A stretch of DNA of 64,000 nucleotides from a gamma proteobacterium HTCC5015 (lineage in GTDB: Bacteria; Pseudomonadota; Gammaproteobacteria; HTCC5015): NCBI GenBank assembly GCA_000155715.1, contig DS990605.1, positions 1,284 to 65,283 on the forward strand. The letters are read 5' to 3'. Both the position numbers and the translations under genes were made by a program. The notes under the pieces are model-generated. The model saw nothing but the letters and a program-made list of their open reading frames with translations, made no database searches and was not told the origin of the DNA. Position 1 is the first letter of the stretch; each line of letters opens with the position of its first letter. Positions 24,502 through 62,650 of the stretch are shown piece by piece.

Positions 24502-26946
24502 ATGGAATCCAAACCTACAACGATTCCCGTCAGCCCCAACCTTCATCGATTCCACGGCGGGCTTCACTTGCCCACCCAAAAAGACATGTCGGTAGCCGAG
24601 CCGCTATCCGTGGCCAGTCTACCCGAGCAGCTGATACTGCCGCTTCAACAGCACATTGGGCAAAATGCAGACCCTATCGTCTCTCGCGGGGATCGGGTAC
24701 TCAAAGGCCAGATGGTCGCCAAGGCGCCCGCCTATGTCAGCGCCCCCATTCACGCGCCGACATCGGGTACTATCCGCGAAATCGGTCCCATGCCCGTACC
24801 GCACCCCTCGGGCCTGACCGCGCCCTGCTTGGTCATCGAGCCCGATGGCAAAGACGAGTGGATTGAACTCAAGCCCGTCGCAGACTACACCCAGCTCGAC
24901 CCCATCAGCTTGCGCAACCGTATTCGCGAAGCGGGCATCGTCGGCTTAGGCGGCGCCGCATTCCCCAGTGCGGTCAAACTCAACCCTGGTCCCAGCCGAA
25001 AAATTCACACGCTGGTGATTAACGGCGCCGAGTGCGAACCCTATATCACCTGCGACCAAACTCTGATGAGCGAGCGTGCCGACCAAGTCGTTCAAGGCAT
25101 ACAAATTGCCATGCACGCTCTGGGCGTCGAACGCTGCTGGATTGCCATCGAAGACAGCATGCCCACGGCCCACGAGGGTTTAAGCCAAGCCATAGCACAG
25201 TGCGGCGATACGAAAATCGAAATAAAAGTTGTGCCCACGATCTACCCCACGGGCGGCGAGAAGCAGCTACTCAAAGTGCTGACGGGACAAGAAGTGCCCA
25301 GCAATGGCCTGCCCTCGGAAATTGGCGTGGTATGCCACAACCCCGGCACCATTGTCGCCATGTATCGCGCAATCGCGTTTGGCGAGCCTCTCATTTCGCG
25401 CATCGTCACCATCACCGGCCAAGGCATCGCCTCGCCGCGCAATATCGAAGCGCTGTTTGGCACGCCGATTGCCCATCTCGTCGCCGAGGCGGGAGGTTAT
25501 CAAAAAGGCGTCGAGCGTCTCATCATGGGCGGTCCCATGATGGGCTTTGCTCTGCACACCGACGAGCTGCCCATCGTCAAGGCCACGAACTGCATACTGG
25601 CCGGCCAAGCCGGAGAGATCGCCGATCCCGGTCACGCCGACCCCTGCATTCGCTGTGGGGCCTGCGCCGATGCCTGTCCCGCCGACCTACTACCTCAGCA
25701 ACTCTACTGGTACAGCAAGAGTCGCGAGTTTGAGCGCGCCCAGGATGAGTACAATCTGTTCGACTGCATCGAATGTGGCTGCTGCTCCTATGTCTGCCCC
25801 AGCCACATCCCACTGGTGCAGTACTACCGCTTTGCCAAAACGGAAATTCGCAACGCCGAAGTCGAAAAGCGCAAAGCCGAGCACGCCAAAGAGCGACACG
25901 ATTTCCGACTCGAGCGACTCGAACGCGAGCAACAGGAAAAAGCCGAGGCCATGCGGCGCAAGAAGGAGGAGATCGCCCGCAAGAAAGCCGACGCCAACAA
26001 AGCGGCCAGCAGCGACAAGCCCGAACAAGACGCGATTGCTGCAGCGGTCGCGCGCTCTGAAGCGCGCAAGGCGGAAAAGGCCAAGCAGCGGGCGGGAACC
26101 CGTACTGACAACAATGCAGCCAACGACGCCAAGCAAGCGGCCATCGCCGCCGCCAAGGCTCGCGCCAAAGCCAATACCGAAGGCAGCGACTCGGCCAAAA
26201 GCCAAGCCGAAGCGGCCAAACAGGCCGCCATTGAAGCGGCCAAAAAACGCGCGCAACAACAGGCTCAACCCAGCGCATCGGATAAAAGCGCGGACGACGC
26301 TCGCAAGTCCGCGATAGAGGCCGCCAAAGCGCGAGCGCAGGCCAAGCAATCGGCAAACCAACGCGATAGTGCTGGCGCCAGCAATAAACAGAACGCTATC
26401 GAAGCGGCGAAGCAGCGCGCACTCGCCAAGCAATCGAGCGCACAAGAAGCGCCCGAAGGCGAATCGAAAGCCACAGATCCCAAACAGGCCGCCATTGCCG
26501 CTGCCAAGGCTCGCGCGCTCGCTAAACAACAAGGCGAAGCGGCCAACACCGCCGCAGAGTCGCAAGCGGGCGACGACCCCAAAAAAGCCGCGATTGAAGC
26601 CGCTAAAAAGCGGGCGCTAGAAAAGCAATCGAAAGCGTCAGAAACTGACACAAACGAAGAGAAACCTGTCGATCCGAAAAAAGCGGCGATTGAAGCGGCC
26701 AAACAGCGAGCACTCGCTAAACAAAGCGGTTCGAATACCGCCAGCGATGACGCACCCGCCAACTCTAAGCAGGCGGCCATCGAGGCAGCTAAGACCAGAG
26801 CACTGGCCAAACAACAGGACAACGGAGACGAGGCGAGCGAGCCAAGTTCAGCAACGGATCCCAAGCAAGCCGCGATTGAGGCAGCGAAGCAGCGAGCGCT
26901 GGCCCGCGCCCGTGACAAATCACAACAAGGGAGCGACGATTCGTGA
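24502..26946 (+). CDS. rnfC: Electron transport complex subunit RnfC/RsxC with long repeat tail
   Basis: 814 aa. The first ~450 residues are the conserved RnfC core: the NADH/FMN-binding GLGGAAFPSAVKL region, the SLBB part, and two [4Fe-4S] motifs CIRCGACADACPADLLPQQL and CIECGCCSYVCPS. After about residue 450 comes a charged coiled-coil (DFRLERLEREQQEKAEAMRR) and then nine imperfect copies of an AIEAAKxRALAKQ unit up to the C-terminus, far longer than minimal RnfC. Ala/Lys-rich RnfC tails are known in gammaproteobacteria. The start codon abuts the rnfB stop; the stop overlaps rnfD (GTGA). Confidence 0.95.
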   Translation: MESKPTTIPVSPNLHRFHGGLHLPTQKDMSVAEPLSVASLPEQLILPLQQHIGQNADPIVSRGDRVLKGQMVAKAPAYVSAPIHAPTSGTIREIGPMPVPHPSGLTAPCLVIEPDGKDEWIELKPVADYTQLDPISLRNRIREAGIVGLGGAAFPSAVKLNPGPSRKIHTLVINGAECEPYITCDQTLMSERADQVVQGIQIAMHALGVERCWIAIEDSMPTAHEGLSQAIAQCGDTKIEIKVVPTIYPTGGEKQLLKVLTGQEVPSNGLPSEIGVVCHNPGTIVAMYRAIAFGEPLISRIVTITGQGIASPRNIEALFGTPIAHLVAEAGGYQKGVERLIMGGPMMGFALHTDELPIVKATNCILAGQAGEIADPGHADPCIRCGACADACPADLLPQQLYWYSKSREFERAQDEYNLFDCIECGCCSYVCPSHIPLVQYYRFAKTEIRNAEVEKRKAEHAKERHDFRLERLEREQQEKAEAMRRKKEEIARKKADANKAASSDKPEQDAIAAAVARSEARKAEKAKQRAGTRTDNNAANDAKQAAIAAAKARAKANTEGSDSAKSQAEAAKQAAIEAAKKRAQQQAQPSASDKSADDARKSAIEAAKARAQAKQSANQRDSAGASNKQNAIEAAKQRALAKQSSAQEAPEGESKATDPKQAAIAAAKARALAKQQGEAANTAAESQAGDDPKKAAIEAAKKRALEKQSKASETDTNEEKPVDPKKAAIEAAKQRALAKQSGSNTASDDAPANSKQAAIEAAKTRALAKQQDNGDEASEPSSATDPKQAAIEAAKQRALARARDKSQQGSDDS
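26130..26935 (+). repeat. Coding repeat array in rnfC tail
   Basis: Nine diverged units in the reading frame of rnfC, each carrying a core like KQAAIEAAKQRALAKQ, separated by variable Ser/Asp/Glu-rich spacers of roughly 10-20 residues. The protein motif is kept far better than the DNA, which suggests selection on the helix rather than recent duplication. Confidence 0.85.
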
Positions 26947-29449: not shown

Positions 29450-29545
29450 GTCACACCTCCCGAAAGGTGGCAGGATGGCGTCATTGCTTTACACTGAATG
29501 GCGCTCTGCATTCCATTATTTTTAAAAATTAAGAGGACAACGACC

Positions 29546-29887
29546 ATGGCTAAAAAATCACTCACTATTTCTAGCGCTATCGGCCTAACTTTGGCGGCCA
29601 CTTTATCAGCGGGCACCGCTCAAGCCGATCAGGCCAACCCCTTTGGCATGAGCGAAATGAGCAGCGGCTACCAAGTGGCCGGTGATCACGAAGGCAAGTG
29701 CGGCGAAGGTAAATGCGGCGAAGACAAGGCCAAGCGCGAAGGTAAATGCGGTGAAGGTAAGTGTGGCGAGGACAAGGCCAAAGCTGCCGCTGAAGGTAAA
29801 TGTGGTGAAGGCAAATGCGGCGAAGACAAAGCCAAGGCCGACTCCGAAGGTAAGTGTGGCGAAGGCAAGTGCGGTGGTGACCACTAA
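29546..29887 (+). CDS. hvfA: HvfA-type RiPP precursor with eight EGKCG motifs
   Basis: 113 aa from the ATG at 29546, preceded by an AGAGGA site. A Sec signal peptide covers residues 1-27 (GTAQA|DQ). After a short linker come four doublets of [10 protein letters not shown], separated by EDKAK-type spacers, ending in GGDH: eight cysteines, all in EGKCG context. In HvfA-family precursors these cysteines are changed by the MNIO enzyme into thiooxazole-type, copper-binding residues. The mature peptide is expected to be periplasmic or exported. The next gene is the MNIO enzyme, 2 bases on. The family match is strong; the metal and the modification here are inferred. Confidence 0.88.
29689..29880 (+). 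repeat. Tandem coding repeat in hvfA core
   Basis: Four in-frame units of about 45-54 bases, each encoding [10 protein letters not shown] plus a spacer. Synonymous codons differ between units (GGT/GGC, AAG/AAA, TGT/TGC), so the array is not a very recent perfect duplication, while every Cys, Lys and Glu of the motif is kept. Confidence 0.85.
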
Positions 29888-29889
29888 TC

Positions 29890-30768
29890 ATGTCTAGCGC
29901 GACGCCCAGCACGGCCCACGTAAACGGCTTTCGCGCCGCAGTGAGCGGTGCTGGGCTCGGCCTGCGTCGTGGTTTAACACAGACGCTGTCCGACTACCCC
30001 GAGGCCATCGACTTTATGGAGGTGGCCCCGGAAAATTGGATTGGCGTAGGGGGCGCAATAGGGCGTCAACTGCGGCAGTTCACCGAACGCTATCCCTTTG
30101 TTTTACACGGCCTATCCCTGTCCATTGGTAGTCCCGCAGCACTCGACGAGCAGTTGTTAAGAGACATCCGCCAGTTTATGGACGAGCACGGGATTGAGAC
30201 GTATACCGAACACCTCACTTACTGCTCAGACGATGGCCATCTGTACGATTTGATGCCCATCCCTTTTACCGAGGAGGCCGTCGACCACGTGGCCGAGCGC
30301 ATTCAGCGCGCCCAAGACATTCTGGGCCGCCGCATCGCCATGGAGAACGCCTCCTACTACGCGGCACCCGGCCAAGAGATGAGCGAAATCGAGTTTCTCA
30401 ACGCAGTTTTGCAAAAAGCCGATTGCGGCTTGTTATTCGATGTTAACAACCTCTATGTGAACTCGATCAACCATCGCTACGACCCTCTCGATTTCATGCG
30501 GCAACTGCCCGCAGAACGCATAGCCTACTGCCATGTCGCGGGGCACTACAACGAAGCGGAAGATTTAATTGTCGATACCCACGGCGCCGATGTCATCGAC
30601 GATGTCTGGCAACTGCTCTCCGTGGCCTATCAACAGTTTGGTTCGCTACCGACACTGCTCGAACGAGATTTCAATTACCCGCCACTCAATCAACTGCTCG
30701 GCGAAATTCATCACATTCACGACTTGCAACGACAGGCCCAAGTGAGCGATAACAACCATATCGCTTAA
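29890..30768 (+). CDS. hvfB: MNIO family RiPP-modifying oxygenase (DUF692)
   Basis: 292 aa multinuclear non-heme iron-dependent oxidative enzyme, the family of MbnB and HvfB, which oxidises precursor cysteines. TIM-barrel metal-ligand motifs are in place: [43 protein letters not shown] and LERDFNYP. It lies 2 bases after hvfA, so tight co-expression with the substrate is expected. The predicted reaction on the eight EGKCG cysteines is by family analogy. Confidence 0.93.
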
Positions 30769-34756: not shown

Positions 34757-35376
34757 GCGGCGGGCCAAGCAGTCTCGGGCTGAAACCCATGCTGACAAAA
34801 ACAGCGTCGTATTGTGTTGGTTCGGCAAAAAACACCGTGGGCACAGAGTTCACAGAGGTGGATAGGAATCGCAATCTCAAGCCTCAATGGATTGAGCTAG
34901 GCAAACTACAAAGTGCCCGATCCGCAAAGAACACGGCCTCATGCCCTTCGTTTAGGGCGTAAGACCGACACCTCTTCGCTTGCACGGCAAGCTCCTACGG
35001 CCACAGCGAGAAGTGTGTCGTCATTGCAATGACGCACTTTAAAGCCTTGCCTACTTCAAAAAACGAGTCATTCCCGCGCAGGCGGGAATCCAGCGTCTTT
35101 AAGTGAGCGGGGGAGTAAAGCCACTGGGCTCCCGCCTGCGCGGGAGCGACGGGGTGGCAGGCGCCCGATCCCGTGACGATGGATTTACGCTGCACGCCTG
35201 ACTTGTGGGAGGACGCCTTTATGCCCTTGGGTGCCCGGGCCGACAGGCGAAGCAACCTGCCTGTCGAATCTGCCAACAGATTGCTTCGCTGCGCTCGCAA
35301 TGTCGCGTTTTAAGCCTTGCCTACTTTAAAACCAGAATGCATCCGCCTAACGGCAATGGCCTGCTGTGCGCCAAAA
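34757..35376. repeat. Repeat-rich gap with families A and B
   Basis: No gene recognised in 620 bases. It holds one full family-A unit at 35067-35151 (ATTCCCGCGCAGGCGGGAAT ... CTCCCGCCTGCGCGGGAG) and one family-B unit at 35205-35244 (GCCTTTATGCCCTTGGGTG then CCCGGGCCGAC). A CACAGAGTTCACAGAGG fragment near 34844 echoes one at about 3258-3276. The 100-residue-class frames here translate repeats. Confidence 0.7.
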
Positions 35377-53564: not shown

Positions 53565-53957
53565 GCCATCGTGACAGGTGGGTTAGCCGCTAGGCATAAC
53601 CCACCAATGCCTGTGGGTGCTCGTGCCGACAGCGCGAGCCGCAGGCAAAGCAATCTGCCCACCGAACACACCAGCAGATGATTTTGCCTGCTTTAAGGCT
53701 CCTACAGCACAACACCGTAGGAGCGTGCCCCGCACGCGAAAATCCATCGACAGCACACAAGCATTCGCCTGCATGGCAGGCTCCTACAGCACAACACCGT
53801 AGGAGCGTGCCCTGCGCGCGAAAAATCCATCGACGGCACACAAACATTCGCCTGCTTGGCAGGCTCCTACACCTGTCATTGCAATGGCGGACTTTCAGCT
53901 CCGTCACGCGAAAATATCCATCTTCCCTTAGATACGACCCTGTGGCATAACTAGCCC
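53565..53957. repeat. Repeat-rich gap with tandem 82/83-bp duplication
   Basis: No gene recognised. A GGTGGGTTA/TAACCCACC hairpin (53577-53605) is followed by a partial family-B fragment, then two tandem units, 53697-53778 and 53779-53861, both starting GGCTCCTACAGCACAACACC and carrying GTAGGAGCGTGCCC, and a third truncated start at 53862. The TAGGAGCG...GGCTCCTA palindromes resemble REP elements of pseudomonads. Confidence 0.75.
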
Positions 53958-56290: not shown

Positions 56291-57439
56291 ATGCCCCGCG
56301 CCCACCTCGTCGATTCCAGCATCTATGTCTTTCGCAGCTGGCATGTCATGCCCGACACGCTGACCGACGCCGAGGGACACCCCGCCAACGCCGTCTACGG
56401 CTTTGCCGACTTTGTCCTACAACTCCTCCACAGCGAGCAACCCAGCCACATCGGCTTTGCCTTTGACCTCTGCCACGCGGGCAACTGGCGCCGAGAAATC
56501 GACGCCCAATACAAAGCCAACCGCCCGCCGCCCCCTGCAGAACTCAAACGCCAGTTTGCCCATTGCCGCGAACTGCTGCAGGCATCGGGGCTCGCCTGCT
56601 TTGGCAGCGACCGCTTTGAAGCCGACGACATCATCGGCACCTTCAGCCGCAGCCTACGCGAACAGGGCTTTGTCTCGACAATCATTACGGGCGATAAGGA
56701 TCTCACGCAACTGATTGGCGAAGGCGACGAGTGGTGGGAGGTGGCCCGCAACAAACGGCTCGACTACCGCGGTATTCACAAGCAATGGGGCATCTACCCC
56801 GAACAGGTCGCCGACCTCTTGGCGCTCGTTGGCGACAAGAGCGACAACATCGCCGGCGTGCCCGGTGTCGGGGTGAAAACGGCGGCCAATCTGCTGAAAA
56901 AATTCGGTGATATCGACGGCGTACTAAACAACATCGACGCCATCGGCGAGATGAAATTCCGCAGCGCCAAACGCATCGAGAACCTCGTGCGCATGCATCA
57001 AGACACAATCCGTCTCGCCAAACTACTCACCGTTATCCCCGACGACCCCACAATCAACACACACGCCAGCGCCCTCGTCCCCTGTCAGTGGGACGAAAGC
57101 CACCTAGGGGATCTCTTTCAGCGCCTCGACTTCAGCCCCCCGCGACAAAAACGCTGGCTCAACGCGCTCAACTCAACCCTCGCCACCTACTGTAGGAGGC
57201 GCCTTTATGCCCGCAGGTGCTCGGGCCGTGCACCCAAAGGCATAAAGGCGCCCCTCCCACAGAGCAGTTGTCGATGTGTGATCTGTTGTAGGAGGCCCGC
57301 CTTCGGGCCGACAGTGCACCGTCACTGCAATAACGCAGCTTTACTAACCTCGTCTAATCTAAAAAACTCTTCATTGCGAGCTGTAGGCGAAGTAATCTGC
57401 CCATCGCAGCACACCCACAGATTGCCCTCCTCGCAATGA
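56291..57439 (+). CDS. 5'-3' exonuclease (Xni/Pol I N-terminal type) with repeat-encoded tail
   Basis: 382 aa. Residues 1-300 form a PIN/FEN domain with HLVDSSIYVFRSWH, FEADDIIGTFS, ITGDKDLTQLI metal-binding motifs and the helix-hairpin-helix GVPGVGVKTAANLLKKFG. Residues 301-382 are unlike the family and come entirely from a family-B dispersed repeat that begins at codon 301, giving CRRRLYARRCSGRAPKGIKA and so on, rich in Arg and Cys. The natural protein is about 300 aa, so the original stop was probably lost on repeat insertion. The tail is likely neutral or disordered. Confidence 0.83.
   Translation: MPRAHLVDSSIYVFRSWHVMPDTLTDAEGHPANAVYGFADFVLQLLHSEQPSHIGFAFDLCHAGNWRREIDAQYKANRPPPPAELKRQFAHCRELLQASGLACFGSDRFEADDIIGTFSRSLREQGFVSTIITGDKDLTQLIGEGDEWWEVARNKRLDYRGIHKQWGIYPEQVADLLALVGDKSDNIAGVPGVGVKTAANLLKKFGDIDGVLNNIDAIGEMKFRSAKRIENLVRMHQDTIRLAKLLTVIPDDPTINTHASALVPCQWDESHLGDLFQRLDFSPPRQKRWLNALNSTLATYCRRRLYARRCSGRAPKGIKAPLPQSSCRCVICCRRPAFGPTVHRHCNNAALLTSSNLKNSSLRAVGEVICPSQHTHRLPSSQ
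57191..57261. repeat. Family-B repeats in palindromic arrangement
   Basis: A family-B unit at 57191-57229 (TAGGAGGCGCCTTTATGCCC...) faces an inverted partial copy at 57231-57261 (CACCCAAAGGCATAAAGGCG), so the pair can fold into a long hairpin inside the exonuclease reading frame. Confidence 0.8.
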
Positions 57440-57472
57440 CGGGTTTTAGCCTTGCCTACGTTTAAAAAACGG

Positions 57473-57550
57473 GTCATTCCCGCGCAGGCGGGAATCCAGC
57501 GTCTTTGAATGAGTGGGAACCACTGGGCTCCCGCCTGCGCGGGAGCGACG
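57473..57550. repeat. Family-A repeat unit
   Basis: Left arm ATTCCCGCGCAGGCGGGAAT, a spacer of about 38 bases containing CCAGCGTCTTT and CCACTGGG, then right arm CTCCCGCCTGCGCGGGAG. Each arm is itself a palindrome and the two are complementary to each other. Confidence 0.85.
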
Positions 57551-57667
57551 GTGGTTGTGGGAGCGACATGGTGACCAAAGCCCCCCCTATTAGAGGGATG
57601 CACCACGGGCCTTGCTCCGCTATAGTCGGGGCATGGCTTTCTGCAGCAAGACTAAAAGGATTTCACT

Positions 57668-58429
57668 ATGCAACGATGTATCAACGCGCTTGTCGCCTCC
57701 GTATTGTTAGCGCTCGCTTTCAGTAGCGCCGCTTGGAGTGACACCGTTGTACGCGTGGGCCTCGAACCCTTTCCTCCGCTCATCAACTCCGATGGCACGG
57801 GTTACACCATCGATTTACTAAAAAGCCTAGAAAAGCATTCAAATCTGCAATTTCAAGTTAATATCATGAGCTACCAACGCTCTAAGATTGAACTGAAGAA
57901 AGGCAATATCGACTTAATTGGCCACACCCCCAAGGGCCTCGAGAGCGCGGCATTTTATCAATATGCGCAGGAACTGAACCTCAAAATTCCCACTCGGCTC
58001 GATCTATTCGCCCTCGACCCCCGCTTTTTAAAGCCCGACCACCTCGAGCAAAACCGCTTGGGTACACCTCCAGGCAACGCGGCCTTCATGGCCGATTTAG
58101 CGCAAATCCCCTTCGATCGCTTTACTGAGAGCCCACTGGCCGGCTTAGTGGAAATGCTGACACTAAAGCGCATCGACGCCATATTATTTGAGCGTGGTTC
58201 CGTGCTAAGTACCCTTGCCCAACAGTCGGAACACCCCACGGTGCACTACAAAACCCTCAAGACCAATATTTTTGCCGGCCTAGCAGTCGGTCGATCCCCC
58301 CGCGCAGACCGACTCGCTCAAACCCTCAATCACACCCTCGAAGGCATGGACTATCTCGCTATCTACACACCCTATCTCAAGCACTATGTGAACGTCGCCG
58401 CCGAAGGGCACACCCCCGCCACCCCCTGA
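57668..58429 (+). CDS. Periplasmic solute-binding protein of the SBP_bac_3 type
   Basis: 253 aa. Signal peptide ends near residue 24 (AWS|DT). The fold matches extracellular solute-binding family 3 (VRVGLEPFPPLINSDGTGYTIDLLKSLEK, then ELKKGNIDLIGHTP). Unlike transporter-associated members, no ABC permease or ATPase genes are adjacent, which is typical of orphan family-3 proteins in marine gammaproteobacteria. Ligand unknown. Confidence 0.82.
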   Translation: MQRCINALVASVLLALAFSSAAWSDTVVRVGLEPFPPLINSDGTGYTIDLLKSLEKHSNLQFQVNIMSYQRSKIELKKGNIDLIGHTPKGLESAAFYQYAQELNLKIPTRLDLFALDPRFLKPDHLEQNRLGTPPGNAAFMADLAQIPFDRFTESPLAGLVEMLTLKRIDAILFERGSVLSTLAQQSEHPTVHYKTLKTNIFAGLAVGRSPRADRLAQTLNHTLEGMDYLAIYTPYLKHYVNVAAEGHTPATP

Positions 58430-59924: not shown

Positions 59925-60571
59925 TCGAAACACTGCTCCGTCGGCCCGAGGGCGGGCCTCCCACAATGACTATTGCCTACTTGGGAGGCGCCTTTATGCC
60001 CTTGGGTGCTCGGGCCGAGCCCCCATAGCCGCCCCCCCGTCATCCCTTCAAACTCTAAATCTTCGAAAGATTCGTCATTCCTCTACTCTCTGAAAAAATC
60101 GTCATTCCCGCGCAGGCGGGAATCCAGCGCCTTTGAGTGCGAGGGATAGTAAAGCCTCTGGGCTCCCGCCTGCGCGGGAGCGACGAAGCTTGTAAGGAGG
60201 CCTGCCATCACTCCCGAACCCTACACCGTTATTACTCCCCTACCGTCATTCCAAACTTGATTTGGAATTTCCTTAACCATTACCCGTCATTCCAGACTTG
60301 ATCTGGAATCCCCCGAAACAGAGCCTTGATAGAGAGATCCTGAAGCTTCCGCTCCTGCTCACGCCCCTTATCGACATCCCTGTAGGCAAATCAAGTTCAG
60401 GATGACGGCGGTGGGTTAGGTGTAACCCACCAATGCCTGTGGGAGGCGCCTTTATGCCCTTGGGTGCTCGGGCCGACAATACGTCGTGACTACAAACTCA
60501 GCGTCGCAATCTGCTCATCGAATACGCCAACAAATTGCCACGTCGGCTGACGCCGCCTCACAATGACGGTA
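59925..60571. repeat. Repeat-rich gap with families A, B and C
   Basis: No gene in about 650 bases. Contains a family-B unit at 59981-60017, a family-A unit at 60101-60185, two family-C motifs at about 60243-60312 (CGTCATTCCAAACTTGATTT and CGTCATTCCAGACTTGATCT), a GGTGGGTTA/TAACCCACC hairpin at about 60409-60432 and another family-B unit at 60438-60477. Confidence 0.8.
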
Positions 60572-62420: not shown

Positions 62421-62495
62421 TGGCAGCGCTGGTGGAACTCCTTTTGGGTCATTGACGACGCGCTGTCGACCCGGGCGGGTCTTCTACACCCCCAC

Positions 62496-62580
62496 CGTCG
62501 CTCCCGCGCAGGCGGGAGCCCAGTGGTTTTACTGCCCCATTCGCTCAAAGACGCTAGATTCCCGCCTGCGCGGGAACGAC
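62496..62580. repeat. Family-A repeat unit in inverted orientation
   Basis: Same unit as at 35067, 57473 and 60101 but reversed: CTCCCGCGCAGGCGGGAG first, ATTCCCGCCTGCGCGGGAA last, with TGGTTTTACT and AAAGACGCTAG in the spacer. It fills most of the gap between DUF2804 and the desaturase. Confidence 0.85.
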
Positions 62581-62650
62581 GAACTTTTTTGCGTCTCTTC
62601 GCCATGACAATCTTTCAACTTCGCCGACAGGGTTGTTGAGTTTGATGGAG

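Follow-up and report, generated by a model that had tools for sequence, protein, structure and literature searches.

Background

Why a stand-alone exonuclease gene of the gamma proteobacterium HTCC5015 runs 82 codons beyond the point where its relatives stop, and what supplied those codons, is the question raised by an open reading frame (ORF) at 56291-57439 on the plus strand of the DNA analysed here. The window, that is, the whole stretch analysed, comprises 64,000 nucleotides of contig DS990605.1, and the ORF consists of 382 codons from ATG to TGA, encoding 382 amino acids (aa). The features of the ORF and of the DNA at its 3' end are as follows.

56291..57190, plus strand: exonuclease core, codons 1-300, delimited by Pfam domains and by family relatives ending at residue 295
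57191..57436, plus strand: 82-codon C-terminal tail, not present in the 22 relatives read
57190..57262, no strand: GTAG-type REP dimer (BIME), with TGTAGGAGG as its head, then a long palindrome, then an inverted head that has CCTCCCACAG at its end
57193..57195, plus strand: TAG within the REP head, not in phase with the exonuclease codons, which here are TGT AGG
57263..57286, no strand: BIME-composite linker, present in part in the copies that precede rluE and adjoin the RAYT gene
57287..57312, no strand: second GTAG-type REP, TGTAGGAGGCCCGCCTTCGGGCCGAC
57372..57441, no strand: third palindrome, CATTGCGAG...CTCGCAATGACG, which recurs elsewhere in the genome
57437..57439, plus strand: TGA stop of the extended frame, within the third palindrome

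Results and discussion

The exonuclease core and the end of its relatives

The ORF product carries two exonuclease Pfam domains above cut-off, 5_3_exonuc_N (residues 5-166, 145.7 bits, cut-off 34.3) and 5_3_exonuc (residues 169-268, 82.6 bits, cut-off 40), without a polymerase part, and judged from its sequence it is a stand-alone 5'-3' exonuclease with polymerase-I-like N-terminal domains. No NCBIfam equivalog reached its cut-off for this ORF, the best being the N-terminal part of polymerase I (253 vs 720), and the Xni model was also below cut-off (134 vs 261 needed). Eight acidic residues (D8, E110, D112, D113, D135, D137, D182 and D185) are invariant in an eight-row alignment and all are kept in the exonuclease; we take them to be metal-binding, as in such enzymes. 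In AlphaFold2, run on an alignment with 11 relatives, the ten-residue means were 81-98 across residues 1-310.

The stand-alone relatives are 291-309 aa long from the match start, all 22 of them read to the stop, and none has a tail; a 23rd locus of the set (L046) encodes an 875-aa polymerase I and was left out of the 22. The family comprises four genomes including the own genome, and besides the latter the exonuclease gene is found in G001 and G003, where it stops at window residue 295; it was not found in the family genome G002 (63% complete). The earlier note on this DNA had put the normal end of the enzyme at codon 301 and called the tail unrelated to the family, and both claims agree with these lengths. 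It had also proposed a comparison with orthologues lacking the repeat, which we carried out: it gives the end of G001 and G003 at residue 295, and an identity of 52-54% to the nearest relatives is too low for the exact base of the ancestral stop to be located. A search for a relative within the genus had a best match of 51% identity.

In a survey of the class, matches were obtained in 265 of 274 genomes, and the best 55 rows, counting the window, have the size of stand-alone enzymes, with stop-to-stop lengths of 267-490 aa. Seven longer frames were read, with 8-17 aa after the model and the surplus upstream (the G015 exonuclease, among the longer frames, is 309 aa), while the other rows among the best 55 have frames of at most 339 aa, leaving at most about 54 residues outside the model with both ends summed. 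Parallel cases of a tail among the relatives were rejected on the surplus of the seven long frames lying upstream, and among the relatives no species was found that has this tail but not the repeat.

Repeat DNA in the tail

Codon 301 is TGT at 57191. The repeat had been described as beginning exactly at this codon, which holds to within a base or two, several genome copies matching from 57189-57191. As was also described earlier, the frame then stays open for 82 codons through the repeat and the DNA that follows it; after residue 295 the first stop met in frame is the TGA at 57437. That the tail is encoded by a dispersed repeat is correct as to the origin of the DNA and too simple as to the number of repeats, the REP dimer (57190-57262) accounting for about 24 codons. 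The tail is made up of repeat sequence, for the most part a composite of three palindromes: 238 of its 246 nucleotides have a match elsewhere in the own genome, and for 214 there are three or more such matches, with two self rows excluded from the count. The end of the third palindrome reads CAATGACG, the reverse complement of CGTCATTG, and by this end sequence alone the palindrome resembles the CGTC-tagged REPs in the available text of PMC3733652.

Folded as RNA, the REP dimer gives -45.7 kcal/mol (z -6.3), and none of 200 shuffles was as good. A known RNA was rejected: Rfam returned two matches (E 0.41 and 0.58), both far below gathering scores. No plus-strand terminator was found after the exonuclease core in 57000-57750, where there are two terminator-like sites on the minus strand. 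Directly after the extended ORF another palindrome, GTCATTCCCGCGCAGGCGGGAATCCAG..., occupies 57465-57557 and occurs also at 35059-35151, 60093-60185 and 62489-62581.

The exonuclease frame misses the TAG of the REP head (in frame 2 the open run is 0 codons). Palindromes are hard to assemble, and an assembly or single-base error here would mean that the real stop lies at or just before codon 301 and that the 82-codon tail is an artefact. The REP-head TAG lies just one phase off the exonuclease frame, and GTAG REPs, according to the available part of PMC3733652, often supply the TAG that ends flanking ORFs. We nevertheless regard such an error as unlikely: the frame agrees with that of the relatives to about residue 295, which leaves only about 15 nt in which it could have arisen, and the assembly consists of 30 contigs with 98.86% completeness and 0.3% contamination.

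An open run of 82 codons is ordinary and not surprising by itself. Among the repeat copies at the 45 of 52 anchor sites whose head was recognised by the script, 6 of 45 are open for at least 82 codons in the same phase (the exonuclease copy included), as are 14 of 135 when any frame is counted. Loss of the stop in the 41 window ORFs of at least 200 aa would extend 11 of them by at least 82 codons. Three 82-codon runs, in C23, C18 and C25, were considered as one composite and rejected; only about the first 40 nt are common and the ends are coincidental.

The repeat family and its RAYT gene

The own genome has 52 anchor sites of the repeat at no more than one mismatch, with TGTAGG or TGTGGG as the head in most of them, and contig C23 (about 104 kb) holds 19 of the 52. 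At two mismatches there are 118 anchor sites vs 28 for the backwards control, so some of the weak sites are due to chance. A 15-base repeat pattern has 47 matches in the own genome and 0 in the backwards control; it has 0 matches in G001, G002, G003 and G012 (G002 being 63% and G003 73% complete), and a DNA search for the repeat in the same four genomes was also empty.

A gene of 146 aa at G000:C30:220443-220883 (L183 2944-3384) matches NF047646, the model of the REP-associated tyrosine transposase (RAYT), with 126.3 bits (cut-off 80) and is flanked on both sides by copies of the BIME found in the exonuclease tail. These flanks are dimers with the head in each orientation, such that an inverted pair can be drawn, not uniquely. 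The RAYT gene is the probable source of the repeats' mobility, and the repeat is a GTAG-type REP system as in the available text of Nunvar 2010 (PMC2817692). A second Y1_Tnp match is located at C27:132160-132381. Within the window an approximately 82-nt tandem pair with CCGTAGGAGCGTGCCC at 53696-53871 forms a second REP-like family. Two further observations in the window concern repeats within coding DNA. At 26118-26897, related coding repeats of 35-48 nt follow one another, most of them at distances of 84-99 nt; at 29498-30768, a 129-aa protein with repeated 10-letter motifs is directly succeeded by a 292-aa ORF, a pair reminiscent of HvfA and HvfB.

ORFs of at least 80 aa overlie many of the 52 anchor sites. 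Ten such ORFs, mostly the longer ones, were scanned against Pfam, and only the rluE ORF has a domain above cut-off; one other has a DUF4538 match below cut-off (E 0.046). No other gene read through by the repeat is supported among the ten ORFs scanned, the surplus of the rluE ORF lying upstream of its likely ATG. Two anchor sites in long ORFs, C29:315375 and C30:202151, lack a REP head and look like chance matches.

The broken exonuclease-rluE junction

In G001, G003 and L032 the rluE gene shares the strand of the exonuclease gene and starts 3, 9 and 1 nt, respectively, beyond the stop of the latter; the first two belong to the same family and L032 is a more distant outgroup. At the other 19 of the 22 relative loci rluE is not in the fetched flanks (about 1 to 4 kb), and the ancestral pairing of the two genes rests on two relatives and one outgroup, since only 3 of 22 loci have the pair. 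The own rluE is located at C23:68067-68630 on the minus strand, about 10 kb from the exonuclease and just past the window end. In NCBIfam it scores best against RluE, with 219.7 bits and thus below the cut-off of 284, while the broader TIGR00093 is above cut-off (184.1, cut-off 109.3). The rluE ORF, G000:C23:68067-68921 (L185 2784-3638, minus strand), is open for 97 codons upstream of the likely ATG, through two REPs, and a gene caller could give rluE a false N-terminal extension.

The BIME composite at the exonuclease end is also present directly before the rluE start codon, in the rluE sense direction, and is inverted relative to that at the exonuclease end. Because the two BIMEs are mutually inverted, turning back the stretch between them would place rluE after the exonuclease with the BIME between the two genes. 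The likely scar of the event is this BIME, present at each of the two ends of the separated genes. The exonuclease gene has a malic enzyme gene as its upstream neighbour here vs an M48 peptidase gene in G001, and three genes near the exonuclease in G001 sit about 40 kb off here, the gene order of C23 being strongly rearranged relative to G001. A single inversion is insufficient for everything, since the upstream neighbour differs and the contig is rearranged elsewhere.

Proposed history of the lost stop

The earlier note had presented the tail as showing how a dispersed repeat can create a new C-terminus. This stands in so far as the tail is repeat-derived and none of the relatives read has it; probably more than a simple insertion took place, however, since the exonuclease-rluE junction, which the family has kept, is found here in a broken and inverted state. 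We think it likely that insertion of the repeat together with rearrangement at this junction explains the lost stop, and that the tail is a tolerated by-product. The history, as we infer it with regard to the order of events, the recombination, the translation of the tail and its neutrality, would have begun with an exonuclease gene ending a few bases before rluE, as in the family. A BIME would have entered the very short spacer between the two genes, removing the exonuclease stop, and recombination between inverted BIMEs would then have carried rluE about 10 kb off in inverted orientation. The frame now runs via the REP dimer, the second REP and the third palindrome to a chance TGA, which would add 82 residues. 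Other orders of events than BIME insertion followed by recombination are possible.

One alternative separates these events in time: the repeat and the broken gene order would be earlier or independent, and the stop would have been lost later by a point mutation or small deletion beside an old REP. The roughly five codons between residue 295 and the repeat give space for a former stop, and REPs usually lie just after genes (PMC3733652, as far as the available text goes). The repeat edge, the broken exonuclease-rluE junction and the lost stop all fall within about 15 nt, however, for which one event is simpler, and the intermediate is seen in no sequence; we consider a later loss of the stop quite unlikely, slightly more so than an assembly error.

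Translation of the extended frame would proceed into a strong hairpin that begins at the enzyme's normal end. In E. coli, ribosome stalling has been reported for REPs situated within 15 nt of the stop codon (PMC12306157, in its available part), and for that reason partial products of the extended exonuclease gene may possibly be made.

Properties of the tail

The tail had been called Arg/Cys-rich, and of its 82 residues 12 are Arg and 8 are Cys, a make-up that follows from the phase in which the repeat is read; its pI is 11.1 vs 6.0 for residues 1-300. A new domain in the tail was rejected: Pfam gave nothing after residue 268, with weak helix-hairpin-helix matches confined to the core, and NCBIfam gave no match beyond residue 283. 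In the AlphaFold2 model pLDDT is below 50 for residues 314-382, a low confidence to be expected whether or not the tail folds, since the alignment has no tail relatives, and the 82 residues are predicted to be probably unstructured.

A basic REP-made tail could also have been kept by selection, altering the repair nuclease, for example by added DNA affinity. A pI of this height and so many Arg residues would suit such a role, and the authors of PMC3733652 speculate, in the part available, that REPs in repair genes may change activity. Against it, the residues are simply what the repeat gives in that phase, the run length is ordinary, conservation is not demonstrable and AlphaFold2 finds no structure, and we regard a selected tail as very improbable. 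If it were true, one junction would touch genes of both kinds, for DNA repair and for a pseudouridine synthase, adding to the reported REP bias and suggesting that the bias toward these two kinds of gene has a cause. Most likely the tail is a tolerated by-product of the repeat insertion and rearrangement, without a function of its own.

Comparison with known systems

The locus illustrates cleanly how non-coding DNA becomes open to translation once a stop is lost at a mobile repeat. Its kind is already known from published C-terminal tails that are made of repeats and in which the normal stop is gone, and the exonuclease tail by itself raises no new question. In the available text of Delihas 2007 (PMC2759123), an RU-1 repeat is located at the 3' end of the amidase gene ECA3499 of Erwinia carotovora. 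In both cases a short mobile repeat follows a conserved domain, the usual stop is gone, having been described as eliminated in the amidase gene, and the protein exceeds its relatives in length; the features described there, namely a repeat after the conserved domain, shorter relatives and a normal stop missing at the junction, are all found in the exonuclease. They differ in that RU-1 is MITE-like and adds 35 residues, whereas GTAG REPs and a third palindrome add 82 codons here, and in that a gene pair is broken at this very point in the exonuclease case.

GTAG and CGTC REPs within coding regions, slightly more than 10% of them at coding-region ends, are reported in PMC3733652, again as far as its available text goes, where intragenic REP clusters encode 43-82 aa and a bias towards genes of DNA synthesis and repair is described, with pseudouridine synthase genes also affected. 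The exonuclease fits these patterns closely, with GTAG-headed REP dimers in coding DNA, and joins the published kinds of gene touched by REPs as a further DNA-repair gene; what sets it apart from those intragenic REPs is a tail that is mostly a composite of three palindromes. With the REP-RAYT system as presented in the available part of Nunvar 2010 (PMC2817692), the repeat shares the GT(A/G)G head, the palindrome, the many copies and a RAYT gene with flanking repeats, whereas here the repeat is of another family with a long dimer, and the RAYT flanks are whole dimers.
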